This document shows, piece by piece, positions 15,565 through 60,304 of a DNA stretch of 64,000 nt. The first letter of the stretch is position 1. Each line of letters starts with the position of its first letter. The stretch lies in assembly GCA_004564215.1 (NCBI GenBank), contig CP024846.1:1302001-1366000 (forward strand), read 5' to 3'. The notes under the pieces are model-generated. The model was not told the origin of the DNA and did no database searches. It worked only from the letters and a program-made list of their open reading frames with translations. Source of the DNA: Beijerinckiaceae bacterium (GTDB taxonomy: Bacteria; Pseudomonadota; Alphaproteobacteria; Rhizobiales; Beijerinckiaceae). A program made the translations under genes and the position numbers.

Positions 15565-16224
15565 CTATTCGGCCGCGACACCGGTCCCGATGGGGCAAGC
15601 CACACCGGTCCCGCCGAGCCCGCAATAGCCGTCCGGGTTTTTGGCCAAGTATTGTTGATGATAGGCTTCAGCGTAATAGAATTCCGGCCGGTCGAGAATT
15701 TCGGTGGTGATCGAAGGAAAGCCGCGCGCGGTGAGCGCCTTTTGAAACATTTTCTTGCTGGCTTCGGCCGCCGCGCGCTGGGCGGCGTTTGCGACATAGA
15801 TGCCGGAACGATATTGGGTCCCGACGTCATTGCCCTGGCGCATTCCCTGCGTCGGATCGTGACTTTCCCAAAACGTCTTCAGGAGCGTTTCATAGGAAAT
15901 CTGATTCGGGTCGAAGGCCACCAGAACCACTTCATTGTGCCCCGTGCGGCCAGAGCAGACTTCCTCATAGGTGGGATTGGGGGTAAGCCCCCCCGCGTAG
16001 CCGACCGCCGTCGCATAGATGCCCTTCCCGAGCTGCCAGAACTTGCGCTCGGCGCCCCAAAAGCAGCCAAACCCAAAAACCGCCGTCTCGATGCCGGCCG
16101 GAAACGGAGGCTTAAGCCTATTTTTGCTTAAAAAATGGGTTTCTTCGGTGGCAATGGGATCGGGCCGTCCCGGCAGAGCCTCGCCGGCCTTGGGCAGGGA
16201 GAGTCTTTTGCCGAAGGAAAACAT
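15565..16224 (-). CDS. msrA: Peptide methionine (S)-S-oxide reductase MsrA
   Basis: MsrA reduces S-methionine sulfoxide in proteins with thioredoxin. The 219-residue protein carries the catalytic GFGCFWGAE motif, [19 protein letters not shown], the FWESHDPTQ block and a C-terminal [12 protein letters not shown] with candidate resolving cysteines. The N-terminal ~40 residues are an extension found in many alphaproteobacterial MsrA. The ATG at 16224 is chosen; ten more residues are possible from 16254. Confidence 0.93.
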
Positions 16225-16330
16225 GGCCAGTCCTCTCAAATGCGGCTTCCTCATCGTTTAGATGAGATTGGCGTGACGCACATTCAATGGGATCACGCCG
16301 AATGCGCGCCGCCGCCCGCGGCGAGCCATT

Positions 16331-16651
16331 TCAGCGGCTCGAGAACCCGAACTTAGGTGCGGGTTTGCGGGCCAGCCAGAACAGCAGCGCGCCACCAAGG
16401 GCAGCCACGACCCAGACCGGCAAACGCTGGAAATCCAGCAGGACTGGGTCCCAAAGGAAAGGATGCAGATGGTGTTCAACAACGTCTTGCGCCAAAGCTA
16501 GTTTGTCCGGAAAAAATGCTGCGGCCCTGTCACCGACCGTGGTGACGGCCAGTTTCCCGTCTGCGAACGAACGGGTGAGATCTACAATCAGGGTGGCAAA
16601 GCCCGCCGCCACAAGGCAGAGGCCCAAAAATCGCATCAGCAATCGAAACAT
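16331..16651 (-). CDS. Small conserved membrane protein
   Basis: A 106-residue protein with an N-terminal helix (residues ~5-22), a soluble middle part ending HHLHPFLWDPVLLDFQRLP, and a second helix (WVVAALGGALLFWLA) with a short basic tail. Similar proteins in Rhizobiales are sometimes auto-labelled PetM family, which I regard as weak. It lies between msrA (same strand) and the divergent trcR. Confidence 0.6.
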   Translation of the reverse strand: MFRLLMRFLGLCLVAAGFATLIVDLTRSFADGKLAVTTVGDRAAAFFPDKLALAQDVVEHHLHPFLWDPVLLDFQRLPVWVVAALGGALLFWLARKPAPKFGFSSR

Positions 16652-16953
16652 GGGCTACGTCGATGTCCCTGGGTTGCCTTGACCCAAATGGTCAATCGGG
16701 GCCGCGTTTGGCGGACGGAAATGCCAGTTTCGCCCCGGCCGGCCCAGACCTCTAGCTTAATTCGTTCCATCCGTAAATTCGTTCATCCGCATTGCGTTTG
16801 AACAGGCTGACGCCTATATAAACCTGCAATTCCCCTCCTGGATATTGATTTTAGCTACTCTGCTGAGCCTAGCCCAGGACTGGCGGGCGGGGGGCGTGAT
16901 GGCGCATCCGCGAAAAACGCGCAACTTTCCGGGTTCGCGCAAAGGAGATTGAT
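16652..16953. other. Divergent intergenic region before trcR
   Basis: 302 bases without a credible gene. It holds the candidate trcR promoter described separately and a strong ribosome-binding site AAAGGAG just before the trcR start. I see no repeat or conserved RNA in it. Confidence 0.6.
16792..16820 (+). promoter_or_regulatory. Candidate sigma-70 promoter of trcR
   Basis: TTGCGT (16792-16797) and TATATA (16815-16820) are spaced by 17 bases, about 134 bases before the trcR start. The spacing is ideal and both boxes are moderate matches. Confidence 0.4.
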
Positions 16954-29136: not shown

Positions 29137-29769
29137 ATGTCCGGGCGACTCGAAGGAAAGCTCGTCATTGCGACGCATAACGCGGGCAAGCTCGCCGAAA
29201 TGCGCGAACTTCTTGTTCCTTATGGCATTACAACAGTTTCAGCCGGGGAATTGGGCCTGCCCGAACCCGAAGAGACGGGCGACAGCTTCATAGCGAATGC
29301 CGAAATCAAGGCCAGGGCGGCCGCAGAACTTGCCCAATCTCCCGCGCTCGCCGACGATTCCGGGCTTTGTGTCGCCGCGCTCGATGGCGCCCCCGGCATA
29401 AATTCAGCGCGCTGGGCGGGGGATTCCCGCGATTTCGAGGCGGCCATGAATAAAATCGAACGGACGTTGCAAACTGCGAAGGCGCGCCCGCCCTTCAAAG
29501 CGCATTTCGTTTGCGTTCTCTCGCTGGCCTATCCGGGCGGAGATACCCGGAACTTTGAGGCCAAAGTTTTTGGCGAACTTGTTTTCCCGCCCCGTGGCCG
29601 GCTCGGATTCGGCTATGATCCGATCTTTCTTCCCGACGGTTTCGAACGGACGTTTGGAGAAATGGCCTCGGAGGAAAAACATTCGATCCCCTCCGATGGA
29701 TCGCTCGCGCTGTCCCATCGGGCGCGCGCGTTCCAAATGTTTGCGCGCGCCTGCCTCGACAAGACTTAG
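29137..29769 (+). CDS. rdgB: XTP/dITP pyrophosphatase
   Basis: RdgB hydrolyses non-canonical purine triphosphates (dITP, XTP) to keep them out of DNA. The 210-residue protein has LVIATHNAGKLAEMRELL, the metal-site block ALADDSGLCVAALDGAPGI with SARWAG, and the C-terminal GRLGFGYDPIFLPDG, then LSHRARAF. The ATG at 29137 lies one base after the rph stop, the common rph-rdgB arrangement. Confidence 0.95.
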   Translation: MSGRLEGKLVIATHNAGKLAEMRELLVPYGITTVSAGELGLPEPEETGDSFIANAEIKARAAAELAQSPALADDSGLCVAALDGAPGINSARWAGDSRDFEAAMNKIERTLQTAKARPPFKAHFVCVLSLAYPGGDTRNFEAKVFGELVFPPRGRLGFGYDPIFLPDGFERTFGEMASEEKHSIPSDGSLALSHRARAFQMFARACLDKT

Positions 29770-32123
29770 CGAGTCACGGGAGCCCCAAGCGCGGCGCGGA
29801 CCCGCTTCAGGATACGCGCGCGGGCTTCGTCCTCCGTTTCGTTTGCCTGACGCTTGACGGCAAACGGTGCGTCTCCGCTCAACAAGCCTTTCATGATGTG
29901 AAATCCGAGCGCGCGATAGACTTCCAATTGCTCCTCGCTGAAAAATTGATCGCCGGTGGATTCCTGCGGAAACTCGCGATAGCGGCGCTTGTAATCTAAA
30001 ATATAGTCGTCCTCGTCGCCGCTCATCGACGCCTTGACGTAAAGCAGGACGCCCTCTTTGTCCGGCCCATATTGAATCCGGCCGGCGGCGCAATGCGGTC
30101 CCGGCGTTCGCGGGACGGGCGTGCCATTTTGATTGGCATCGTCGAAGGCCTTGTTCGTCGCCAAGGTCTGTTCCCGAATGGCTTGCCAGGGGAGTTCGAT
30201 GATCGCGCCGAGATCGATGCGGGCGTAACGCTCAAGAGCGAGGAGAGCGCCAAAGCTCATCGTTTGATCCGCCTCCGCATCGATGGCGATGATCAGCTCG
30301 CAGCGCCGCTTCATCAGCGAATAGACGCCGAGATTTTCGATGTGACCTCCGTCGGTCAGAAAAATCTTCGGGCTCTTCTCGGTAATCCAACTGAACATTT
30401 CCACGAAGAGGACAATGCTGGGCAATTTGAAGAGCTGCGCGATGAGCCAATCGCGCTGCCGCGCCATTGGCGGATGGGCGCACCCGGGGTTCGGATTGCG
30501 GAGCCAATATCCAAGGCGGATGTTGAGAACCGCAAGGGTAAAGGCAAGCGGTTTGATGGTATGCGCGCCCATGTTGGACGAGATGGCCGCTCCCGAAATG
30601 GCCATGGCGGTGCCGAGATTGAGGGTGGGCTCTTTCCCATCGATCTGCCGCGTACCGATATAACCCGTCGCGTCGCTGCCGAGATATTCCGGCGTGAAGG
30701 CAAAAAAGTCGGCATTTCGGCCGCGCTTGTTCGCATATTGCGAACCTTCGATGTTCAAGGCGGCGTTGATGATCGGGTAAGGGCAGCGGTCGGTGTCGAT
30801 GTCGAACAGCTTGGGCTCGTAGGATTTCAGGTCGCCATAAAGATCGCGGTGCCCTTGGTCCGAGCTTGGATCGAACAGAAAAGCCTTGCTGAGCCGATCC
30901 CGGTAAAGGCGGTAGAGGGAGGTGCGATTTGGGTTGATGAGCAAGGCCGCAAGCGTCGCGGCAACAAAAGCTCCGAAAAATAAAAGCACAGCGCCGTGCT
31001 GAAGGCCGTAATAGGTCAAATATAAATACAAAACCCACAAGAAAAACGGCACGACGAGTGCGGCTATCCATAAAGCCGCCAAGGCCATGATCTTTTTGAA
31101 CCAGGCCATCCAGCCAGTGGCGCGTTTCGCCGCGGCCACGACATCGCCGAGATATTTGGAGAAAAAGGCGGAAACAGTGCCCAGCGACGCGAAAATGGCG
31201 GCAAGCGAGGTGCCCAGTCTCTGGCTGAAGGTGCCGCCCCCGGCCTCGACACCAGCCGGTTGTTCACAGATCCACCGCAGAATGAACGGCTGAAATTCAA
31301 AAAATACGGTCGTCAATGTCACGAGAAAGAAGAGTTTTGAAACGCCGACCCAACCGCCCCGAAGGGTCGCACTTGAGCCAAGGTTCAGCGACGTCCAGAC
31401 CGCCCAGATGATGAGAAACAGAACGTTGACGACCGCCAAAATCGCGGTGAACCAGAAACCGGGCAGGCCCCATAGCGGCTCCGAGACAGGCAAGCCCAGC
31501 GCGGCCACGGCATCTGTGAGATTCCAGATGAGAAACCGGGGCTGGTTCAGCGCCTTAATCGTCGGATGGCTGACGAGCGTAATCCAGACGCAGAAAAGGA
31601 GGACGGGCAAAACAATAAGGATATTGGCGATAAGACCGCGGCCAACAATGCCGATGGCCGTGACAACGTCCAGCCCGCCATGCGGGATCAGATAGTTTGA
31701 ATAGTCTCTTATGTGGCGAACCGAGGCGGTGTCATTGTAATTATCGGGGTGGGTAAATGGCAATTTGCCATCCGTTTTCTGCATCGTCGCCGTTAGCGCG
31801 CAGCCGATGTATCCGCCCCCGGACACCGTCGAAAGATAATCAATTCCATCGAAGCCAGATTCGTTTGCCCCCGTGCTTACGCCCAGAGCTTGCAAAGCGC
31901 CGAGCCCGAAAGACGCCGAACGGATCCCGCCGCCGGATAGCGCAACGCCGGTCAGACCGCTGGAACTTCGGTCTCGACCGGGTTTCTTGACACGCAGGCG
32001 GCGCGCTTTGATCGCGGCGACCTCTGCTTCCATGACTCGTTTCGGTGGATATCCCGCCCGACATTGCTCATCGACTTGAGCGTCGACATAGTCGTGATCG
32101 CCGCGCTTGGCTTCGTCCGACAT
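29766..32123 (-). CDS. Membrane-associated patatin-like phospholipase
   Basis: A 785-residue protein. The patatin fold is split: oxyanion loop GGGIRSA (residues 64-70) and nucleophile Ser101 in STVSGGG near the N-terminus, catalytic Asp in TDGGHIENLG (591-600). Between them lie about four to five transmembrane helices (roughly 164-184, 223-243, 262-282 and 345-397). Such enzymes release fatty acids from membrane lipids. GGAGG precedes the ATG at 32123. It is the last gene of a minus-strand cluster with a DyP peroxidase, GMC oxidoreductase and cytochrome c. The substrate is unknown. Confidence 0.85.
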   Translation of the reverse strand: MSDEAKRGDHDYVDAQVDEQCRAGYPPKRVMEAEVAAIKARRLRVKKPGRDRSSSGLTGVALSGGGIRSASFGLGALQALGVSTGANESGFDGIDYLSTVSGGGYIGCALTATMQKTDGKLPFTHPDNYNDTASVRHIRDYSNYLIPHGGLDVVTAIGIVGRGLIANILIVLPVLLFCVWITLVSHPTIKALNQPRFLIWNLTDAVAALGLPVSEPLWGLPGFWFTAILAVVNVLFLIIWAVWTSLNLGSSATLRGGWVGVSKLFFLVTLTTVFFEFQPFILRWICEQPAGVEAGGGTFSQRLGTSLAAIFASLGTVSAFFSKYLGDVVAAAKRATGWMAWFKKIMALAALWIAALVVPFFLWVLYLYLTYYGLQHGAVLLFFGAFVAATLAALLINPNRTSLYRLYRDRLSKAFLFDPSSDQGHRDLYGDLKSYEPKLFDIDTDRCPYPIINAALNIEGSQYANKRGRNADFFAFTPEYLGSDATGYIGTRQIDGKEPTLNLGTAMAISGAAISSNMGAHTIKPLAFTLAVLNIRLGYWLRNPNPGCAHPPMARQRDWLIAQLFKLPSIVLFVEMFSWITEKSPKIFLTDGGHIENLGVYSLMKRRCELIIAIDAEADQTMSFGALLALERYARIDLGAIIELPWQAIREQTLATNKAFDDANQNGTPVPRTPGPHCAAGRIQYGPDKEGVLLYVKASMSGDEDDYILDYKRRYREFPQESTGDQFFSEEQLEVYRALGFHIMKGLLSGDAPFAVKRQANETEDEARARILKRVRAALGAPVTR

Positions 32124-32190
32124 CCCGTCCTCCGTCCTTCCCGATCCGCCGCATACGCTATCTCGAAAACGCGAAGGGGCCGGCGCCGTC

Positions 32191-33798
32191 TCAGCCCCTG
32201 TCGCCTGGCTGGGCAAAGAAGCGCAAAGCCCGGATGCTGGGCAAAAAGAAATAGGCGCCCCCGCGCAAAGTGATGAATTGCGGCAATCCGGCGATCCGGC
32301 GGTTAAGGCCGTTCGGCTGCGGCAGAACAAATGAATCGGTGGCTTTGCCGACCGGACAGGCGGCACGATTGCCGACCAGCGGATCGGTTTCGCCGCTCAT
32401 CCCGTTGAACTTCGCGTTCATGATCCAAGCGGTTTGGATGAACTCGAATTGCCGGGCAATATTGGCGTTGAGGGCAATGAAATATATTCCGCTCTTATTA
32501 TGATGTACGTCGTCCCGCCGGGCCGCTTGCGGTTCGATCAAATCGCCATAGGGCCGCCCTCGCCGCACAATTCGGTGCAGGCGGCTTGAAGAAATCAGGT
32601 CCTCGCGCGGGCCGTCATGCTTCAGTCCCAGCATGCGAAGGATCCAGGAAAGAAAGCCTTGCCTTCCACCCGGCATGTCGCCCGTTCGGGGATTTGCACG
32701 GCGAATATGGGATCCAAAGGGACAGGTCAAACCCTCGGGGTCCGAATCGAAGGTGAACCCGTTCTGACGGATGTCGATGGCTTCCGGTCCGACGCCGCGC
32801 GTGTTGGGCGCTGATGCGGGGACAAGCGGATCGCCGGTGGAAAGACGCCGCCCCACCATCGCTTCCGCCAAGCTGACGCCCTCATCCTCGGGCGATTGCT
32901 TGGACACGAATTGCCAAAAGCCCGGAACATTTTGCTCAAGTTGGCGGAACACGAGATAGGTTCCATTGCGACCAAGGTCGCGGCGCGTTCGATCATCCTC
33001 GGCACGCCGCAATATATCCTTGGGATCCTGGACCGGATCGAGGACCGGGCGGCTGGTGTAAAAACCGTATTCGTTCGGATAGCCAAGAAGAAACTCGCCG
33101 GTGGCGATCAGATTGCCATATTCAAGATCCTCGCGGATCCCGACGATACGCTCGCCCTTCCAGTCAATCGCAGGCTGGCTGATGCCATCGATAAACCCAA
33201 AGGGTTCGCGCCGCACCTGGTCATCATTATTTTCAGGCGCATCAGCCGCGCGGAGCGTGTCAAGGATCTCAAAGCCCAAGGCGAGGTCGGCGATGACCAT
33301 TTGCTGGAATGCGGCGAGAGCGCCGTGTTCAGCGTAAAGCATGACCAGAACGTCGGGCTCATGGTTAGGCGCGCCCCACTCCCACTTCGTCGGCGCGCTC
33401 TCGTCAACATCGCCTAACCGGCGAGGGCGGCCCTCTTCCTCCGCGTCCTTGCCCGCCATGCCAAAGTAAAATTCTCTGGAAAATGCATGGAGAACCTCCT
33501 CCTGCAATCCCAAATTCCGCAGGCCAGGGGCGGTGAACGCGACCTGGAGTGTACGATGCAGCTTATGATCGTCGGACTTTAAATCCGCTATGCTCGTCAC
33601 GCTGTAAGATAATTTCTCGGCATTCGGCTCTTCGACGATCGCAGCGAGCCATTCTTTTGCCTCCCCCCGGTCCTTGACCCGCAACAGAAGAAACGAGGCT
33701 TCTCCAAGTGTGCCATAACCAGAGTATAAGATACCCTGAATGTCGTGAAGCTCGCTGACGGGTTGAACCATGACGCGCCCTATATCTCCGACAGCCAT
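32191..33798 (-). CDS. DyP-type heme peroxidase family protein
   Basis: About 535 residues. The DyP landmarks are the distal GFIDGISQP (Asp204 of GxxDG) and the proximal heme-ligand His364 in CPFGSHIRRANPR, with the distal Arg region in between. It is longer than classical DyP enzymes and has no export signal. DyP proteins oxidise dyes, lignin-type phenols and, in some cases, other substrates with hydrogen peroxide. The ATG at 33798 follows GGAGAAA and overlaps the upstream gene by 19 bases; an ATG at 33771 is possible. The cluster suggests a lipid-peroxide context. Confidence 0.85.
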   Translation of the reverse strand: MAVGDIGRVMVQPVSELHDIQGILYSGYGTLGEASFLLLRVKDRGEAKEWLAAIVEEPNAEKLSYSVTSIADLKSDDHKLHRTLQVAFTAPGLRNLGLQEEVLHAFSREFYFGMAGKDAEEEGRPRRLGDVDESAPTKWEWGAPNHEPDVLVMLYAEHGALAAFQQMVIADLALGFEILDTLRAADAPENNDDQVRREPFGFIDGISQPAIDWKGERIVGIREDLEYGNLIATGEFLLGYPNEYGFYTSRPVLDPVQDPKDILRRAEDDRTRRDLGRNGTYLVFRQLEQNVPGFWQFVSKQSPEDEGVSLAEAMVGRRLSTGDPLVPASAPNTRGVGPEAIDIRQNGFTFDSDPEGLTCPFGSHIRRANPRTGDMPGGRQGFLSWILRMLGLKHDGPREDLISSSRLHRIVRRGRPYGDLIEPQAARRDDVHHNKSGIYFIALNANIARQFEFIQTAWIMNAKFNGMSGETDPLVGNRAACPVGKATDSFVLPQPNGLNRRIAGLPQFITLRGGAYFFLPSIRALRFFAQPGDRG

Positions 33799-35108
33799 TG
33801 ACGGATTTCTCCGTCCGACATGGGCTTTTGTTCTTCCAGACCTTTCCGAACGCGGGCATTGCGAGAAATGTCCATCAAGGTCAATCCCGGATAGGCCTTG
33901 TACCAAACCTCGGTCGGAAGCGAGTGCCGGCGCTGCGTGTTCTTGAATTCTTGCTCACGCGAGGCGCCGCCAAAAATCAAAAAACTCGTCTTGGGGTAGC
34001 TGACCCCATGGCTGAATGTGAGGTTGAGCCCAAAGGCGACCTTATTGACGAAGTCATCCATATAGCTCTCGGAACTTCCATCGTAATTGCTGGCAAAAAC
34101 AACTCTGCGCTTGTCGTCCAGAAAAACCCAGCGCGCGAAATGGATGGTCTTCACTCTCGCGAGATTGCCCCGGGGATAAAGAAACGGGGTGGCAAGATTG
34201 ATGACCCACAACAGGAACGTCATTGTCCGCCGCCGGAACGGCCCTGGTTTGATCGCTCCGAAAGCGCTGTATTGGTTGGTCACGTCAAAATCTTGGATAG
34301 CGCCGAGGGCCGTCAATTGGTCGGAGGTGGGCGGCGTTAGAATTTCAGGGTCGGTGGTTTCATGCTGCCGCAGACGGTACAGAAAGACCCCGAGAGCCGC
34401 GAGCAAGACAAAGAAAAATAGAGCATAAAGAAAGAAGGCAGCGAGCAACGGCAACACCAGAAGAGGCAGAACAAAGCCTATCAGCGCCGCGACCGCGACG
34501 GAAATCTGCGCTAGCCTTTTGATTTGCCATAGGAGAGGCGTAGGAGCCGGCGGCGATACACGCGGCCCTTTTTCCTGCACCTTGCGAATGAGCTCGGCCC
34601 GGATTTGTTGCGGGGATTCGTCGAGCAATTCTTTGGGGAGACCGGCGAGATAAATGCTCAAAGCCTCATGCAGCTCCGCTTCCTCGCGGATTTGCCGAAC
34701 CGTGCGGCCGATCCAATTGACATAGGCTGTGGCCGGTTTGACCGAATGGCTACGCATCCAGGCCAACAAATCCTCATTGGGCTGGAAGCCTTTGCAATAG
34801 GAAAAGATTTTGCGCAGCCCTGGCTCGGCTCGAAACGCAAAATCCGCGAGCAGCCGATCCGCCGATCCGTCGCAATCGCCAAGGAAAGCGAGATAAACCG
34901 GCGGGTCGGGAAACGTTACGCCATAGGCGGCAAGATCGCCCAGAGTGACGTCGTCCAGGATTACGAAACGGGCAAAATGCAGCGTACCGAACTGGCCGAA
35001 CGGAACCAGGGCGTTGGCCGGATCCACCGTGCCAGGACATTTGTTCATCGTCAGCAGAAGCTGGCGCAATTCCGCTTCCCGACCCGGCAGGATCGGAGCT
35101 GCAACCAT
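33780..35108 (-). CDS. Membrane protein with an internally duplicated unknown domain
   Basis: About 442 residues, not a family I can name. Two copies of one motif flank a membrane segment (residues ~201-246): TLHFARFVILDD...DCDGSADRLLADF (42-90) and TIHFARWVFLDD...NYDGSSESYMDDF (321-353). The short strand HFARxVxLDD with a following DGS...DF recalls ferredoxin-like dimeric alpha/beta barrels, the fold also used by DyP proteins; this is only a guess. The gene lies just upstream of the DyP gene with overlap. The start is uncertain: an ATG at 35108 is chosen, a TTG at 35144 is possible. Confidence 0.7.
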   Translation of the reverse strand: MVAAPILPGREAELRQLLLTMNKCPGTVDPANALVPFGQFGTLHFARFVILDDVTLGDLAAYGVTFPDPPVYLAFLGDCDGSADRLLADFAFRAEPGLRKIFSYCKGFQPNEDLLAWMRSHSVKPATAYVNWIGRTVRQIREEAELHEALSIYLAGLPKELLDESPQQIRAELIRKVQEKGPRVSPPAPTPLLWQIKRLAQISVAVAALIGFVLPLLVLPLLAAFFLYALFFFVLLAALGVFLYRLRQHETTDPEILTPPTSDQLTALGAIQDFDVTNQYSAFGAIKPGPFRRRTMTFLLWVINLATPFLYPRGNLARVKTIHFARWVFLDDKRRVVFASNYDGSSESYMDDFVNKVAFGLNLTFSHGVSYPKTSFLIFGGASREQEFKNTQRRHSLPTEVWYKAYPGLTLMDISRNARVRKGLEEQKPMSDGEIRQWLSEI

Positions 35109-35153
35109 GAAATTGGATTGCGGGGTCACTTTATTTTTGACCAAAACAACGGG

Positions 35154-35585
35154 TTAGAACTTCAGCGCGAAATCGATCAGCCGCTTCTTGTCCCAATAGA
35201 CCTTGCCGAGATAGAAATTCGGACTAATGAGGCGAATCTCGTCCCGGATCCAATGCGCGACCAGCGATGTATCCGAGTAATCCAGGACGATGCATTCTTT
35301 TCCGTCCAGCCAGCTCGGCGCCTTGTAGACTTTTGCAACAATGGCATTGAAGCCGAAGGGCAGAATCCGGTTCTTTAAATACCCGGCCTTGGCGTCAAAA
35401 ACTTTTCCCTGCCACGCGAAATGGTTGATCAGGGTCGCTATTTCAGGAGAATAGGCAGTGCCGGGCGCGATGATGGCTGTCCCGTCCGCCTGACCGTCCG
35501 GTATTGGCCCAGACTCCGAGGCGCTGAACAGATCGTCGAGTTCTGTTTGATTCATGCGAAGCAATTGAGCGACATCATAGGCCAT
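35154..35585 (-). CDS. Small conserved protein of the lipid-oxidation cluster, unknown function
   Basis: A 143-residue soluble protein with the conserved-looking blocks NHFAWQGKVFDAKAGYLKNR, PSWLDGKECIVLDYS, VAHWIRDEIRLI and NFYLGKVYW. There is no signal peptide or membrane helix. The pattern of aromatic residues and short strands suggests a small beta-barrel, possibly binding a hydrophobic ligand (inference). GGGGGAGGAG precedes the ATG at 35585. It sits between the GMC oxidoreductase and the duplicated membrane protein genes, so it probably serves the same pathway. Confidence 0.65.
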   Translation of the reverse strand: MAYDVAQLLRMNQTELDDLFSASESGPIPDGQADGTAIIAPGTAYSPEIATLINHFAWQGKVFDAKAGYLKNRILPFGFNAIVAKVYKAPSWLDGKECIVLDYSDTSLVAHWIRDEIRLISPNFYLGKVYWDKKRLIDFALKF

Positions 35586-35723
35586 TGCGGCTCCTCCCCC
35601 GGTTGTCGCTTTCAGGCCGTCAATTGAACGCCCTATTTTCCGGCGAAAGAATTGCACAATTTTCAGTTCGCTTCTAGCACTATTTGGATCGCAATCCCCG
35701 CCAGGCGGGAAGAAGCAAAATCA

Positions 35724-37607
35724 TCAACCTGGGCGCGATTCGTCCTGTGATTGCGCTTCTTGCAGAATGACGTCGGCGGCCTTCTCGGCGATCATATAGA
35801 TCGCGCTCGCGATGAAGAAACCGGGGATGCGCGGAAACACGGAGGCATCGACAACGCGCAGCCCTTTCGTTCCATGCACCTTGAAGTCACTGGACAATAC
35901 GCCCCCGGCATCGGGGGCACCGATCGCGCAGGTGCAGGAGGCATGATGTCCCCAGGCGGTGTCGCGCACATGCTGCGCGAGCTCGTCGTCGCTTTGCAAA
36001 TGCGCCCCGGGGAATAATTCCGTGTCCATCAGCGGCGCTTCGTCTCCGGGCCTGAGCCGCGTCGCCGAGGCGGCAATGGAACGGACGGACCGGATTCCCG
36101 CAACCACCGCTTTCAGATCCTTTTGCTCGGAGTCGGAGCCTTCATTGAAATAACGGAAATTGATTTCTGGACGGTCCTGCGGATCGGCGGAGCGCAACCG
36201 CACATAGCCCGCCCGGTTGATCGTATGCGCCTTCAAGACCGCAAACGTCAGATAATCGAGCCCCTTGCGAAAATCGAGGGAATAGTCGGGGTAATAGCCC
36301 TTGAACCTTGCCAGCAGGGCCATGCAGAACAGATCCGGGTCGAGAAGTTCCGGTGCCGAACGCTGCGTGAAAGCGATGGCGGCTCCGTTCGAAATATACA
36401 TGCCATTTCGATTGTCGAGCCATTCCCGGTATTGGGGATCGGTTTTGTCGAATTTCGCGCCAACGAGACAGCTCCACGGTTGGTCCATTTTGTGGACGAC
36501 CGTCACTTCATAACGGTCCTGGAGATTTTGCCCCACGCCGGAAAGTGGCGACACGATTGAAATGCCGTGCCTTTCGAGTTCGTCCCGAGGGCCTACGCCC
36601 GACAACATCAAAAGCTGTGGCGTGTTAAAGGCGCCTCCCGCCAGGATAACCTCCCGCGCCGCCCGCACCTCGCGCCGTTCCCCTGGCTTGGTGCTGGCAT
36701 TTTTGTGAGCCCGATAGAGACGTTCGCCCTTCAAATATTCGACACCGACGGCGCGGTTTTCGGCATCGAAAATGACCCGCGTCGCGAGCGCATGGAGCTC
36801 GATGCGAAGCCGGTCCGGATAGCGCGCCGCGACTTCCCTGAGACGCTCTCGGGTCCCCGTTCGTGAATGCCCATCGGTCGTCATGGGCACATAGCAAAGC
36901 CCCGGCACCCGGTGCCGCAGACGCCGCGCGTCGTTTGGATCGGCTTCCCCTTTGAAGAAACGCCGGAGTGCAGCCCTCCAACGCGGTTCGTCTCGGATCA
37001 CGCTCCATGCGGAACGGATGATCAATTTCACAAGCTGATCATCTTTGAAAGCGTTTTGGGGTCTTGCCTTTTCGGTAGGAAGCCAACCGCTCCAGCCATG
37101 CCCCGTCCAATCGAGGCCGAACCAGCGCAGGAAGCGCCGGAGCGGACGGTGCCGGCAGTCTTCCAGCAAGCGCAGATAGCGCCGCATGTTCGAGGCAGCC
37201 CAGGAGGGATCGCCGGTCAGGCGCGCAATTTCATCCCAATCGGATTCATAAGGCGCGACGAAAATCATCGCATTATGCGCCGTGCAGCCGCCGAGCGTGC
37301 CGGCGCGTGGATAAAAGATACTGTCTTCGCCGGTTGCCGGATCAGGCCGATGCTTCCAATCAGCCTTCTGTTGCGCATCGTCGGTATAATGGCGGACGAA
37401 AAAATCCCAGCTCATCGTCGGGTTTTCGGACGCAAAAGGATGGAAGCCGGGAACATTGTAGTCCTCCGGCAGCCCTGCCGCTACGCCTTGACGCGGATCG
37501 CCCCCCGCCTCCAGCAGGACCACACGCATTCCCGCCTCGGCGAGCCTGGCGGCGAGAGTCCCGCCGCCCGCACCCGAACCAACGACAACATAATCGCAGT
37601 CATACAT
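35724..37607 (-). CDS. GMC family FAD-dependent oxidoreductase
   Basis: A 627-residue flavoprotein: dinucleotide fold VVVGSGAGGGTLAARLAEAG at the N-terminus, GMC signature RAGTLGGCTAHNAMIF (~100-115), the block VILAGGAFNTPQLLMLSG, and the C-terminal catalytic region WGHHASCTCAIG with DASVFPRIPG. GMC enzymes oxidise alcohols (choline, cholesterol, long-chain alcohols, glucose) and pass electrons to oxygen or a cytochrome. The adjacent di-heme cytochrome c gene suggests the latter. No export signal is evident. The ATG at 37607 is chosen; a TTG at 37661 would overlap the cytochrome gene. Confidence 0.9.
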   Translation of the reverse strand: MYDCDYVVVGSGAGGGTLAARLAEAGMRVVLLEAGGDPRQGVAAGLPEDYNVPGFHPFASENPTMSWDFFVRHYTDDAQQKADWKHRPDPATGEDSIFYPRAGTLGGCTAHNAMIFVAPYESDWDEIARLTGDPSWAASNMRRYLRLLEDCRHRPLRRFLRWFGLDWTGHGWSGWLPTEKARPQNAFKDDQLVKLIIRSAWSVIRDEPRWRAALRRFFKGEADPNDARRLRHRVPGLCYVPMTTDGHSRTGTRERLREVAARYPDRLRIELHALATRVIFDAENRAVGVEYLKGERLYRAHKNASTKPGERREVRAAREVILAGGAFNTPQLLMLSGVGPRDELERHGISIVSPLSGVGQNLQDRYEVTVVHKMDQPWSCLVGAKFDKTDPQYREWLDNRNGMYISNGAAIAFTQRSAPELLDPDLFCMALLARFKGYYPDYSLDFRKGLDYLTFAVLKAHTINRAGYVRLRSADPQDRPEINFRYFNEGSDSEQKDLKAVVAGIRSVRSIAASATRLRPGDEAPLMDTELFPGAHLQSDDELAQHVRDTAWGHHASCTCAIGAPDAGGVLSSDFKVHGTKGLRVVDASVFPRIPGFFIASAIYMIAEKAADVILQEAQSQDESRPG

Positions 37608-37638
37608 GCGCGACGAACCTTCGGTGCCCGCGGAGTCT

Positions 37639-40161
37639 TCAGAACGTCTTGATAAATTCAATCAGGGCGCGCTTGTCGTCGTCGCTCAACACCGGTTCAG
37701 GGGCAAACGACTTCTCCTCATCGCTCAGACCCTCCACATTGTTGAACTCCGCCGTCCCGAAATAATGGCCGCGATTGACGACGAAGTCCGGACATTTGCT
37801 GAGCTTCAGCATTGGCTCCTTGAGATTAGCGAACTTCTGCCGCAGTTCCTCGTCGGAGACATTGTCCGGCAGCGTCAAAACATCCGCTTTCAACTTCAAG
37901 ACGAATTCACCAAGATTTTTGATGAAGGCCACCTTTTCAACCGGATCGTCGGTTTCGGAGCGCAAGCGGATATTGGACAAAAGATTGACCGGCATTCCTT
38001 TAGGGATCGGGCCGAGCGTCAATCCCCCGCCAGAGGCGACGAGCCCTGGAAACCAGCGATGCAACTTGGCCCTGAAGCCATCCTGAAGGGGCTCAAAGGC
38101 GTCGGGCACCGAGATATAGCCTTGCGGAATCGGAATCCAGCTTCGCGCCGAGGTCCGATCAATCACGCCCAGCGCCTTGTCGCCCAGCGTTTTGTCGCGC
38201 TCGCGTTTTTCCGGCCACAGCAATTGCTCGATCGAAGCCTGAAAGACTTCCATCCTGGCCTCGACGGAAGGACTTTCGTTGAACGGGCCGAGGCTATTGT
38301 TAAGCAGGAACGGGGCGGTCGACCAGATGCTGACCAGCGGGGGCACCCGGGTGTAGCCGCGTCCTCCGGCCGGCATCTTGTAAGGCTGCAGTTCCCCGGT
38401 GAAGGGATCTTGCACGGTGATGGTCCCGACCGAAGGCAGATCCTTGTAGGACGTCGAGGAGAAGTTATCCCAGATGTTGCCGGCAATGGCATTCGTCGCC
38501 AGCGGACTGCAGGCGTTGGTGCGCAGCAGCGTCACCGGGACGCGTACGTCGGTTGAAAGATAATTCCCGGCGAGGAAATCAGGCGCGGCGACGATCTTTC
38601 GCATCTCGTCCTTGAACTGATCCGTCTTGGTAAAATTCCAATAGCGTTTCCAGCAGGCGAGATAATCGGGACCGGCGCAGCCCGAGGGATCGAGACCCGC
38701 GACACTTTCGGGCAGTTTGCTCGAATGGCAGCGGGCGCACGTCTCGGCGAACACCGTCTTACCGCGTTCCAGCGACGCCTCTTCGGCGTGCAAATATTGG
38801 TCTCCGCCCGGCGCATCCTTCAGATTGTCCGGCTGTCCGGCCTTGAGAAAGAACAGCGCCATGTTGAACGTGCCGGCTTCCGTGGCCTGCCAATAGGATG
38901 AGTTCTTTTCGGCGGTCTTGATCTCAATCGGGCTGATCGTCTTGCCGCCGGCCACCGGATTGAAGTGCAAAAGCCATTCTTCGCTGAACAGACCGATGTT
39001 GAGATAGACCCGGTTCAGCGCGCCGAGCGCCCCGACCGAGTCCGATCCGTCCTTCAGCACATGCGGCGTCCAGACGGTCGCCGGCTTGTCGAAGAATTGG
39101 GTAAGCACCGGGGCGGAGGAAAAATCGTTGAGCTGCTTGTTATCGAGTTCTCCGCCGGACAGCGTTTCCTTCCCCCAGCGCTTGCCAATGGCAAGGCGAG
39201 GCAAGAGATTATAGACGGCGTTCATGGTTCTTGGATTATTGATATAGTCCGTCGAAACCAGCGAGGTGTCCATAGCGCCCGGCCGATAGGTCTTGACGAG
39301 CTGGTACATGAAATTCTTTGGATCGGCGCCGTAAATGAACAGCCGATCGACCCACATGTATTGAGCGCCCACCGTCGAATTGAGATCGGCCCATTGCGGA
39401 TGTGCGGGATCGGCCGGGGGGTGAATCGGGCTTGGCCCGACGTGGCAGAATCCGCAGGACATCCCTACCCTGTAGGGCCGCACCAAATTCGGATCGTTGA
39501 AGTATTTCTCGTCGGTATAATATCGGTTGGCGTCCCAGCTTTTCGCCGCGTCTTCGTTGAAATCCGGATTGGGAAAAAGGCGCAGGCCGACGATGCCGGT
39601 GGCATAGCCAAAGTAGGAGCCAACAGGGAGGGTCTGGTCCTTTCCGATTGCCTTGCCGCGGGCGCCGATCACAACCCCCGGATATTTTTTTTCATCCTCG
39701 AATGGATCGGCTGGACATTCCTTGTTGCGGATGTCGAGCCAAAGACCGAAGCGGCTCGGATCGGGGGCGGTCGCCTTGTCGAAGCAGGGCTCATTGACGA
39801 GGCCCAACCAACTCCAGCGCGAATCGCGGTCGGATTTCAAGCCAGGGTAGGAACTGATGATCTTCAGAAGGTCGAAGCCACCAAATGTTGCGGCGGTCAT
39901 CTTGTCCCAGAAGCGGTCGTTCCCGCCGGTCCAGACCACCCACATATTGCGGCCCTTGATTTCCTCCGGCGTCAGGGCGACCCCATTATCCATGTCATGG
40001 AAATAATCTTCCGAAGCCTGCGGAAAACTGGCGGCCTCCCGCCCAACGCGTTTTGCCTCATCGACCACGTGCCCGGATTGCGGAGACGAATCACAGCCCA
40101 AGAGAAAAATCATGCACGACAAAATGACGAGCCCGCCGCCAAGCACTCTCAATCGCGCCAT
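37639..40161 (-). CDS. Di-heme c-type cytochrome lipoprotein, oxygenase/peroxidase-like
   Basis: An 840-residue lipoprotein with lipobox LLGC (Cys23) and two c-heme sites, CGFCH (236-240) and CARCH (475-479). The stretch YLNIGLFSEEWLLHFN (386-401) lies between them. The size and heme spacing resemble large di-heme proteins such as the rubber oxygenase RoxA and the Pseudomonas fatty-acid dioxygenases of the cytochrome c peroxidase type, rather than small electron carriers. AGGGGA precedes the ATG at 40161. It opens the minus-strand cluster. Whether it acts as oxygenase, peroxidase or electron acceptor for the GMC enzyme cannot be decided by eye. Confidence 0.82.
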   Translation of the reverse strand: MARLRVLGGGLVILSCMIFLLGCDSSPQSGHVVDEAKRVGREAASFPQASEDYFHDMDNGVALTPEEIKGRNMWVVWTGGNDRFWDKMTAATFGGFDLLKIISSYPGLKSDRDSRWSWLGLVNEPCFDKATAPDPSRFGLWLDIRNKECPADPFEDEKKYPGVVIGARGKAIGKDQTLPVGSYFGYATGIVGLRLFPNPDFNEDAAKSWDANRYYTDEKYFNDPNLVRPYRVGMSCGFCHVGPSPIHPPADPAHPQWADLNSTVGAQYMWVDRLFIYGADPKNFMYQLVKTYRPGAMDTSLVSTDYINNPRTMNAVYNLLPRLAIGKRWGKETLSGGELDNKQLNDFSSAPVLTQFFDKPATVWTPHVLKDGSDSVGALGALNRVYLNIGLFSEEWLLHFNPVAGGKTISPIEIKTAEKNSSYWQATEAGTFNMALFFLKAGQPDNLKDAPGGDQYLHAEEASLERGKTVFAETCARCHSSKLPESVAGLDPSGCAGPDYLACWKRYWNFTKTDQFKDEMRKIVAAPDFLAGNYLSTDVRVPVTLLRTNACSPLATNAIAGNIWDNFSSTSYKDLPSVGTITVQDPFTGELQPYKMPAGGRGYTRVPPLVSIWSTAPFLLNNSLGPFNESPSVEARMEVFQASIEQLLWPEKRERDKTLGDKALGVIDRTSARSWIPIPQGYISVPDAFEPLQDGFRAKLHRWFPGLVASGGGLTLGPIPKGMPVNLLSNIRLRSETDDPVEKVAFIKNLGEFVLKLKADVLTLPDNVSDEELRQKFANLKEPMLKLSKCPDFVVNRGHYFGTAEFNNVEGLSDEEKSFAPEPVLSDDDKRALIEFIKTF

Positions 40162-40643
40162 AGTCCCCTTTCCCCCTTTTTTGTTGCGCCGCAAAAGCCC
40201 CGCGCATTTAATATTTAATAAAGCCAGCAGAAAATTTGGTTTGAACCCATGCAATCGCCAAGGCTTTCGGGCGCCGCAACGACACCGATGCCCCTAGCAT
40301 AAAAACGCTTCCCCCGAAACGAGCCACCGATCGTGGCGTGCGCGAAGCCCGCGAAAAGCGGACGGGCAGAGTTTTGAAAGCTAACCTATTTTGTGCGTGG
40401 CGAATAGTGATTTAGTTTCATGTCGTAGGCACGCCGACCCTCTGCTCGCCGCTGGCGAATAACGCGCGAGAAGCAACGTCGGCCTGTGCCGAACGACAGG
40501 TATGCACGGGGAGCCTTTTCCGATTCGCAGGGGAATGTTAACCTAAAGCACTTGTGGATGATCGTCCCGCTGCTTTCGTCGATGAGGCCATCGGTCTATT
40601 CAAGACAAGATGTGTTCGCGGACCACGGTGAAAGGATAAGCAG
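40162..40643. other. Divergent intergenic region between the cytochrome and catalase-like genes
   Basis: 482 bases without a credible gene. A 95-codon plus-strand frame runs into the catalase-like gene but has no ribosome-binding site or familiar sequence. TAACCT occurs twice (near 40383 and 40539) in front of the plus-strand gene. Promoters for both directions must lie here, but I cannot assign boxes. Confidence 0.5.
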
Positions 40644-41819
40644 ATGTTCCTCAAGGCATTGCATGACGCGCTGGTGTTCTTCCTGCACGTGGAACGCCGA
40701 TTGGAACCCTGGTTCCGGCCGCAGTTCGACCGGATTTTTCGTGAGCCTCTGGCGAAAATCATCCAATTCCTGATCAATGTGCAACGAAGCGATGAAGGTC
40801 TTCGGCTGGCCGAGGAACGGCTTCTCCCCCATGAGAAGGAGTTCGAGCAGGAGATCATCGACCAGATGGCGCAGCAGATGCGTAATCATTTCAAGCCGGG
40901 AGCCTATGAGCGCGGCGGCAACACCAAGACCCATGGAATTGTCCGCGGCACATTGACGATCCGGGACGATGTGCCTGTCCATATGCGACACGGCATCTTT
41001 GCCGAGCCCCGCACCTATCCGGTTTGGGTCCGCTATTCGGGGCCCGGTCCCGATGTTCCCGCCGATATCAACGACGTCGGTTTTGGCAGCATGACAATTA
41101 AAATAATGGGCGTTCCCGGTCCGAAGCTGCTCGATGATGAGAAATTCACCCAGGATCTTCTCTGCGTCTGTACACCCACCTTCGTCACGCCCGACACCCG
41201 CGCAAATGCGAAACTGCAGGATTGGAGCACAAGGGAAATGCCGGTGTTCTATTTCCTCAACCCCAAGGACACGCACCTGCTCGATTTTTTCATGCAGTCG
41301 CTGTGGAACGGGACGCAATATAATCCGCTTGGACAATATTATTACAGCTGCGTGCCTTATCTTCTCGGCGAAGGCCAAGCGATGCAATATTCCTTCTATC
41401 CAAGAACCGAAGTCTGTCGCGACATACCGGGCTTGCCGTTCCGCGCGCCGTTCAATTACCTTCGCGACAATATGGTCAAGACGCTCGCGGAAAAAGACGT
41501 CGAGTTCGATATTCGCGTGCAGGTTCAAACCGACCCGTTCCGGATGCCGATCGAAAACGCGGCCGTTCTCTGGCCGGAAAAATTATCCCCCCGCGTGCCG
41601 GTGGCCACGCTGCACATTCCCGCGCAAAAATTCGACTCTCCCGCGCAATTCGCTTTCGCCAAAACGCTGTCCTACAATCCATGGCACTCCCTGCCGGAAC
41701 ATAGGCCTCTCGGCAATCAGAGCCGCGTGAGGCTCAGGCTCTATACGGAATTGTCGAGATTCCGCCAGAGGATGAACAACACGCCGCATCAGGAGCCAAC
41801 CGGCGACGAGGTTTTTTAG
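40644..41819 (+). CDS. Catalase-fold heme protein (short catalase-related family)
   Basis: A 391-residue protein, shorter than a full catalase (about 480 or more). The distal His97 in KTHGIVRGTLTI and a C-terminal proximal Tyr367 in RLRLYTELSRFR are in the expected places. The usual catalase family signatures are otherwise degraded and the C-terminal catalase domain is missing. Related short catalases include allene oxide synthase-like enzymes that convert fatty-acid hydroperoxides, and organic-peroxide peroxidases. AAAGGAT precedes the ATG. It is divergent from the di-heme cytochrome gene and likely belongs to the same pathway. Confidence 0.82.
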   Translation: MFLKALHDALVFFLHVERRLEPWFRPQFDRIFREPLAKIIQFLINVQRSDEGLRLAEERLLPHEKEFEQEIIDQMAQQMRNHFKPGAYERGGNTKTHGIVRGTLTIRDDVPVHMRHGIFAEPRTYPVWVRYSGPGPDVPADINDVGFGSMTIKIMGVPGPKLLDDEKFTQDLLCVCTPTFVTPDTRANAKLQDWSTREMPVFYFLNPKDTHLLDFFMQSLWNGTQYNPLGQYYYSCVPYLLGEGQAMQYSFYPRTEVCRDIPGLPFRAPFNYLRDNMVKTLAEKDVEFDIRVQVQTDPFRMPIENAAVLWPEKLSPRVPVATLHIPAQKFDSPAQFAFAKTLSYNPWHSLPEHRPLGNQSRVRLRLYTELSRFRQRMNNTPHQEPTGDEVF

Positions 41820-60217: not shown

Positions 60218-60304
60218 TGGTGCGGGCGGTCGGACTCGAACCGACACTCTGTCTCCAGAACCGGATTTTGAGTCCGGCGCGTCTACCAGTTCCACCACGC
60301 CCGC
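60218..60304 (-). tRNA. tRNA-Leu (CAA anticodon)
   Basis: On the minus strand the acceptor stem GCGGGCG pairs with CGCCCGC, followed by discriminator A and an encoded CCA. The anticodon stem CCGGA/TCCGG closes a seven-base loop CTCAAAA with anticodon CAA. A long variable arm and the T-loop GGTTCGAGTCC are present, as expected for a class II leucine tRNA of 87 bases. It reads UUG codons. Confidence 0.95.

Follow-up and report, generated by a model that had tools for sequence, protein, structure and literature searches.

Several described systems resemble parts of the gene cluster considered here. In the coral catalase-related allene oxide synthase the heme-binding residues are Arg64, Arg102 and Arg360, with Tyr353 as the proximal and His67 as the distal residue (sections of PMC5617202). 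The diheme enzymes PA2077 and PA2078 of Pseudomonas aeruginosa (FadCcps), an oleate-diol synthase pair, which have signal peptides and belong to the CcP/MauG/RoxA class, carry two CxxCH motifs 245 and 235 residues apart and the MauG motif PYFHNGSVP (sections of PMC4496055); the rubber dioxygenases RoxA, RoxB and RoxC are a further described system. The cluster studied here lies in a 64,000-nucleotide stretch, hereafter called the window, which covers positions 1302001-1366000 of the single-contig 3.33 Mb genome of a Beijerinckiaceae bacterium (GCA_004564215.1, CP024846.1). It includes genes for a diheme cytochrome c (CYT), a GMC oxidoreductase (GMC), a small soluble protein (SML), a membrane protein with a duplicated domain (MEM), a dye-decolorizing (DyP-type) peroxidase (DYP) and a catalase-fold protein (CAT), together with a patatin-like phospholipase gene (PAT). 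The host is placed near Methylocapsa because the named ones among the nearest homologues were those of Methylocapsa polymorpha (71 % identity for MEM and 84 % for CYT). The first six genes form, as judged from sequence comparison, a conserved locus which has probably spread horizontally and which is tentatively read as oxidising a hydrophobic substrate, most likely a lipid, in peroxide-centred chemistry.

Conservation of the locus

GTDB genomes were scanned with two patterns from a CYT profile, and the best 80 of 118 relatives were used. The 80 loci were fetched by the CYT profile alone, the partners not being used for retrieval. GMC was present in 78 of them, SML in 65, MEM in 58, DYP in 54 and CAT in 53. 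Many of the contigs stop short. In 52 loci the sequence extends 7 kb or more upstream and 9 kb or more downstream of CYT (long-flank loci); here the corresponding numbers were 51 for GMC, 46 for SML and 41 each for MEM, DYP and CAT, and all five partners were present in 40. The locus occurs in Proteobacteria and Acidobacteriota in several gene orders: all six genes have the same direction in many Betaproteobacteria, SML-MEM-DYP faces CYT-GMC-CAT in many Alphaproteobacteria, and CYT is directed away from GMC and SML-MEM-DYP in several Acidobacteriota. A shared function is well evidenced, since the families remain together while their order changes. Chance adjacency of unrelated genes is extremely improbable because the partners recur, across two phyla and in rearranged order, in loci that only CYT had selected. 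The original prediction had described a cluster of seven genes and had proposed a search for their co-occurrence in other genomes; the search recovered six of the seven as a recurring set and left the patatin outside it.

Strong homologues of PAT were found in 8 of the 80 CYT loci, two matches of about 24 bits (L026 and L079) being excluded, and anywhere in the genome in 10 of 149 genomes of the family Beijerinckiaceae (E 0.001), so the patatin recurs as an accessory gene and lies outside the core. PAT itself matched PF01734 slightly above the cut-off (E 1.5e-6, residues 142-194) and has seven hydrophobic segments. Another patatin was found at locus L066 and a Tle1-type lipase-like protein (similar to that of L078 or L126, both confirmed by Pfam) in six loci, giving lipase-like neighbours in 15 of the 80 loci (17 with any match, before the two weak patatin matches were dropped).

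The locus is kept in two phyla, and three of its families, MEM, SML and CAT, gave no Pfam match above cut-off with the window proteins; scans of 30, 36 and 41 members, respectively, gave only families that were hit by one member each. Profiles of MEM and SML compared with the PDB matched nothing of note. A GXWXG/lipocalin-like character of SML was suggested by eye only, and PF14231 had no match in 40 genomes, nor in the control genomes. All six families are present in the named isolates Variovorax paradoxus ISL-79 (L027) and Novosphingobium resinovorum VKM B-1172 (L087), which makes the locus testable. In the open-access literature no paper on the gene set was found, in agreement with the earlier statement that no described pathway has exactly this set. 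Each superfamily is known already and the set would be a variant of peroxide-dependent oxidation systems, a categorically new pathway being possible.

Within the host genus CYT is unevenly distributed, being present in this genome and in 4 of the 14 others. A DUF4331 protein adjoins CYT-GMC in two genomes of the same genus (L015:11416-12543 and L016:11767-12888). When 95 of 251 picked neighbouring ORFs (22 of 23 loci) were compared with Pfam the tallies were small, RoxA-like cytochromes leading with 3 among the 25 of 140 families listed.

Catalase-fold protein and membrane peroxidase unit

The AlphaFold model of CAT (pLDDT 90) shows a catalase fold, and among solved structures it comes closest to coral allene oxide synthase domains, with catalases next, within about 2 Z units. 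CAT shares with the coral allene oxide synthase/hydroperoxide lyase proteins the fold and the heme-binding Arg and Tyr residues (Arg90, Arg130, Arg374 and Tyr367, present in 56 of 56 aligned rows), and differs from them in having Asn at the position of His67 and Gly at that of Thr66, and in carrying no lipoxygenase part. The distal position is Asn (Asn93) in all 55 cluster members, whereas 15 of the 16 relatives read outside the cluster retain the distal His. The likeness to catalase-related allene oxide synthases that had been suggested earlier therefore holds for the fold and the heme residues and fails at the distal His. In the CAT tree the cluster members form one clade (support 100/100), in which the Acidobacteriota rows stand in two places, one of them among Betaproteobacteria. 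The distal Asn of catalases seems to fall on column 176, which is mostly Ser in the cluster; outside relatives vary there too, and for this reason no claim is made on it.

With three peroxidase- or catalase-type proteins in the locus, a role in peroxide defence could be considered, in which H2O2 or organic peroxides would be cleared at the membrane by DYP, CAT and CYT, with only an incidental place for GMC. This is improbable in view of the loss of the distal His of catalases from every cluster CAT and of the position of GMC as the most constant partner. On the preferred reading CAT, lacking the acid-base His, would rearrange or cleave an organic hydroperoxide instead of dismuting H2O2. If lipid hydroperoxides are handled, the catalase fold would have been rebuilt around a distal Asn, and the locus would provide a bacterial oxylipin-type route without lipoxygenase.

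Two other catalase-related proteins were observed. One is part of a 1001-residue fusion (L154:766-3768, minus strand) in which a catalase-related domain carrying Phe in place of the distal His is linked with a LodA-type lysine oxidase. The other is a paralogue in the present genome (L012, C1:1168000-1187000, at 15820-16947) which keeps the distal His.

The top PDB match of DYP was 8re3, 'Peroxidase, putative' (E 7.7e-42), entries named DyP following at E 5e-22 and weaker, and TIGR01413 matched at E 2e-27 (96.3 bits vs a cut-off of 100.5). The model PF04261 evidently misses DYP, as it had no match in the whole genome. Asp240 of the GxxDG motif and the proximal His400 were invariant in 22 of 22 aligned members. 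DYP thus shares motifs and sequence homology with dye-decolorizing peroxidases, and differs in having the MEM membrane domain as its partner, either as a separate protein or in one chain, many relatives adding a cytochrome P450 (P450). The two halves of MEM are homologous to each other (hhalign E 9e-8) and have a hydrophobic stretch (208-260) between them. A relation of MEM to DYP was rejected, the profile comparison giving a probability of 0.2 %.

The MEM profile matched 7 of 149 genomes of the family. MEM and DyP are in one protein in G027, with a P450 frame directly upstream, and P450, MEM and DyP are all in one protein of 1471 residues in G109. The MEM halves are separate genes beside DyP and P450 in G009, G130, G180 and the present genome, whose second MEM-type locus, with split MEM halves, DyP and P450, lies at 5911-10624 of L124 (C1:632000-645000). 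Split MEM and DyP were also found in G023, where no P450 was seen in the 13 kb read; in total a P450 accompanied 6 of the 7 MEM-DyP loci outside the CYT cluster, one of them in the present genome. In G009 and G027 these genes are followed by one of GST type, and G180 gave a weak match to it (23.5 bits). MEM and DyP form one unit, since fusions and neighbouring loci join them, often with P450.

The usual P450 I-helix motif is (A/G)Gx(D/E)T. When the MEM part of the G109 fusion was used to search a database, 519 proteins matched, of which 120 were listed; 100 of those listed had the P450 heme motif, and in the I-helix region of these 100 the sequence GxhPT (h, hydrophobic) was found in 97 and the canonical motif in 2. 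Most of these P450s lack the usual I-helix acid. Sulfitobacter and Pararhizobium plasmid records contain P450-DyP proteins, 1620 and 1423 residues long, under the annotation cytochrome P450, and a Novosphingobium aromaticivorans protein annotated as Dyp-type peroxidase also matches the P450. The second heme partner of MEM-DyP is thus P450 in one lineage and may be CAT in the other, CAT then having the role which the acid-less P450 would have in the other version. The joining of a peroxidase-type heme domain and a P450 in one chain has an analogue in fungal dioxygenase-P450 fusions (PMC13049297). The theme common to the versions is probably heme chemistry with peroxides near the membrane, sometimes with lipases.

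Diheme cytochrome, compartments and proposed function

All 85 aligned proteins have both CxxCH motifs of CYT, and by a loose pattern 62 of the 85, including the window protein, have an N-terminus resembling a lipobox. With the model for diheme cytochrome c peroxidases CYT scored 32 bits (E 7e-8), the cut-off being 150. Neither the single sequence nor the profile gave a meaningful match to PDB sequences, and Foldseek found no match for the CYT model at E 0.001. CYT resembles PA2077 and PA2078, as described, in the spacing of its CxxCH motifs (239 residues), in its predicted export and in its class. It is longer, has GMC, DyP and catalase-fold neighbours, and carries Leu where the MauG motif has His. 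The position concerned, 651, is Leu in 76 of the 85 proteins, the window protein among them, Gln in 5, Ile in 2, Val in 1 and His in 1. From the rubber dioxygenases CYT differs in its gene company and in the weakness of its sequence matches (only the RoxC model, E 0.04, and RoxA-like_Cyt-c, PF21419, E 0.014, below cut-off).

Some CYT-GMC loci without MEM, DYP and CAT hold canonical diheme enzymes in their place, which mostly carry PYLHNGSVP. In Rhizobium johnstonii 3841 (L160, pRL11 522242-542899) one run contains a pair of canonical diheme enzymes, a protein of 143 residues, CYT, GMC and a patatin. The present genome has a second CYT copy, 67 % identical (L012, 8378-10885), with no GMC match within the 19 kb around it; the catalase-related paralogue mentioned above is 5 kb from this copy, with an integrase gene between them.

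GMC matched PF05199 (E 1.7e-30) and likewise PF00732 over cut-off. Of 77 GMCs, 73 were tested for a hydrophobic stretch before the FAD motif and none had one; DYP, SML and CAT of the window have no hydrophobic segment. Direct electron transfer from GMC to CYT is doubtful, because GMC has no such stretch and CYT has a lipoprotein-type N-terminus. A respiratory or maturation role, with CYT serving a GMC dehydrogenase or acting as a MauG-like maturase and the other genes accessory, is quite improbable on the same compartment evidence and given that MEM, DYP and CAT are each kept in 41 of the 52 long-flank loci. The original prediction had electrons passing to the cytochrome, which conflicts with the predicted compartments. 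Its overall interpretation is supported in part: the six-gene locus stands, this electron flow is doubtful, and the patatin is not a member of the conserved set.

It is plausible that a lipid, or some other hydrophobic compound, is oxidised by way of a hydroperoxide. MEM would anchor DyP in the inner membrane, and perhaps CAT as well, and a hydroperoxide or peroxide would be made or used there. After the conversion by CAT proposed above, the alcohol or aldehyde formed would be oxidised by the cytosolic GMC, and in the periplasm CYT would act on peroxide or a related substrate. In loci with patatin or Tle1-like lipases, these would release the substrate.

Several points weigh against a lipid pathway of this kind. 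A lipoxygenase (PF00305) was not found in this genome, and among ten cluster genomes searched only that of Scleromatobacter humisilvae (L164, the genome of L053) had a match (E 2e-50); the genome thus lacks the usual source of lipid hydroperoxides, and some other oxygenase, a diheme enzyme or the DyP unit perhaps, would have to supply them. The substrate range of DyPs and of GMCs is wide, and CAT may have no catalytic activity. The compartment predicted for CYT is other than that of GMC, DYP and CAT, and no lipase-like neighbour was found by these queries in 65 of the 80 loci. The counts across the 80 loci are not independent, since 22 are Variovorax by title, and among the five CYT genomes of the host genus MEM and DYP are at the locus only in this one and in G007, where CAT sits on a separate short contig.

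It is possible, if rather unlikely, that the same chemistry acts on a non-lipid substrate, either aromatic or lignin-derived, or terpenoid or polyisoprenoid as for RoxA. DyP and GMC families often act on aromatics, the diheme neighbours of CYT match RoxA, RoxB and RoxC models, far below cut-offs, and the lack of a lipoxygenase here would fit such a substrate. The nearness of CAT to coral allene oxide synthase domains, with catalases scoring little lower, the recurrence of patatin or Tle1-like genes beside CYT and the membrane attachment of the MEM unit through its hydrophobic stretch argue instead for lipid. That the lipid reading extends to a new class of lipoxygenase-free lipid-hydroperoxide pathway, with membrane-tethered MEM-DyP, interchangeable CAT or P450 without its oxygen-activating acid, GMC and a divergent periplasmic diheme enzyme, is conceivable and on balance unlikely.

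Layout in the window

All seven ORFs were found where they had been placed, six on the minus strand and CAT alone divergent (Table 1), and each matched its earlier description, as membrane patatin, DyP peroxidase, duplicated-domain membrane protein, small unknown protein, GMC oxidoreductase, di-heme lipoprotein cytochrome or catalase-fold protein. The starts of CYT, GMC, SML, DYP and PAT are the analysts' choice and likely lie inside the ORFs. Transcription on the minus strand runs in the order CYT, GMC, SML, MEM, DYP, PAT; these genes are likely one operon, since with the chosen starts the gaps between them are 31, 138, 9, 8 and 67 bases.

Table 1 Features of the locus, with positions in the window
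Feature	Position	Strand	Remarks
PAT, membrane patatin-like phospholipase	29766..32123	-	accessory, outside conserved core
DYP, DyP-type heme peroxidase	32191..33771	-	GFIDG motif (Asp240) and His400 present
MEM, two HFAR domain copies, hydrophobic stretch between	33780..35144	-	no Pfam match over cut-off
SML, small soluble protein	35154..35585	-	conserved family without Pfam match
GMC, FAD-dependent GMC oxidoreductase	35724..37607	-	no export signal seen
CYT, diheme cytochrome c, predicted exported lipoprotein	37639..40161	-	hemes CGFCH and CARCH; C-terminal RGHYFGT His
CYT/CAT divergent intergenic region	40162..40643	n/a	
CAT, catalase-fold protein	40644..41819	+	Asn93 replaces distal His; Arg90, Arg130, Arg363, Tyr367 and Arg374 kept

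The sole RNA gene in the window at curated thresholds is a tRNA-Leu (caa) at 60218-60304 on the minus strand.
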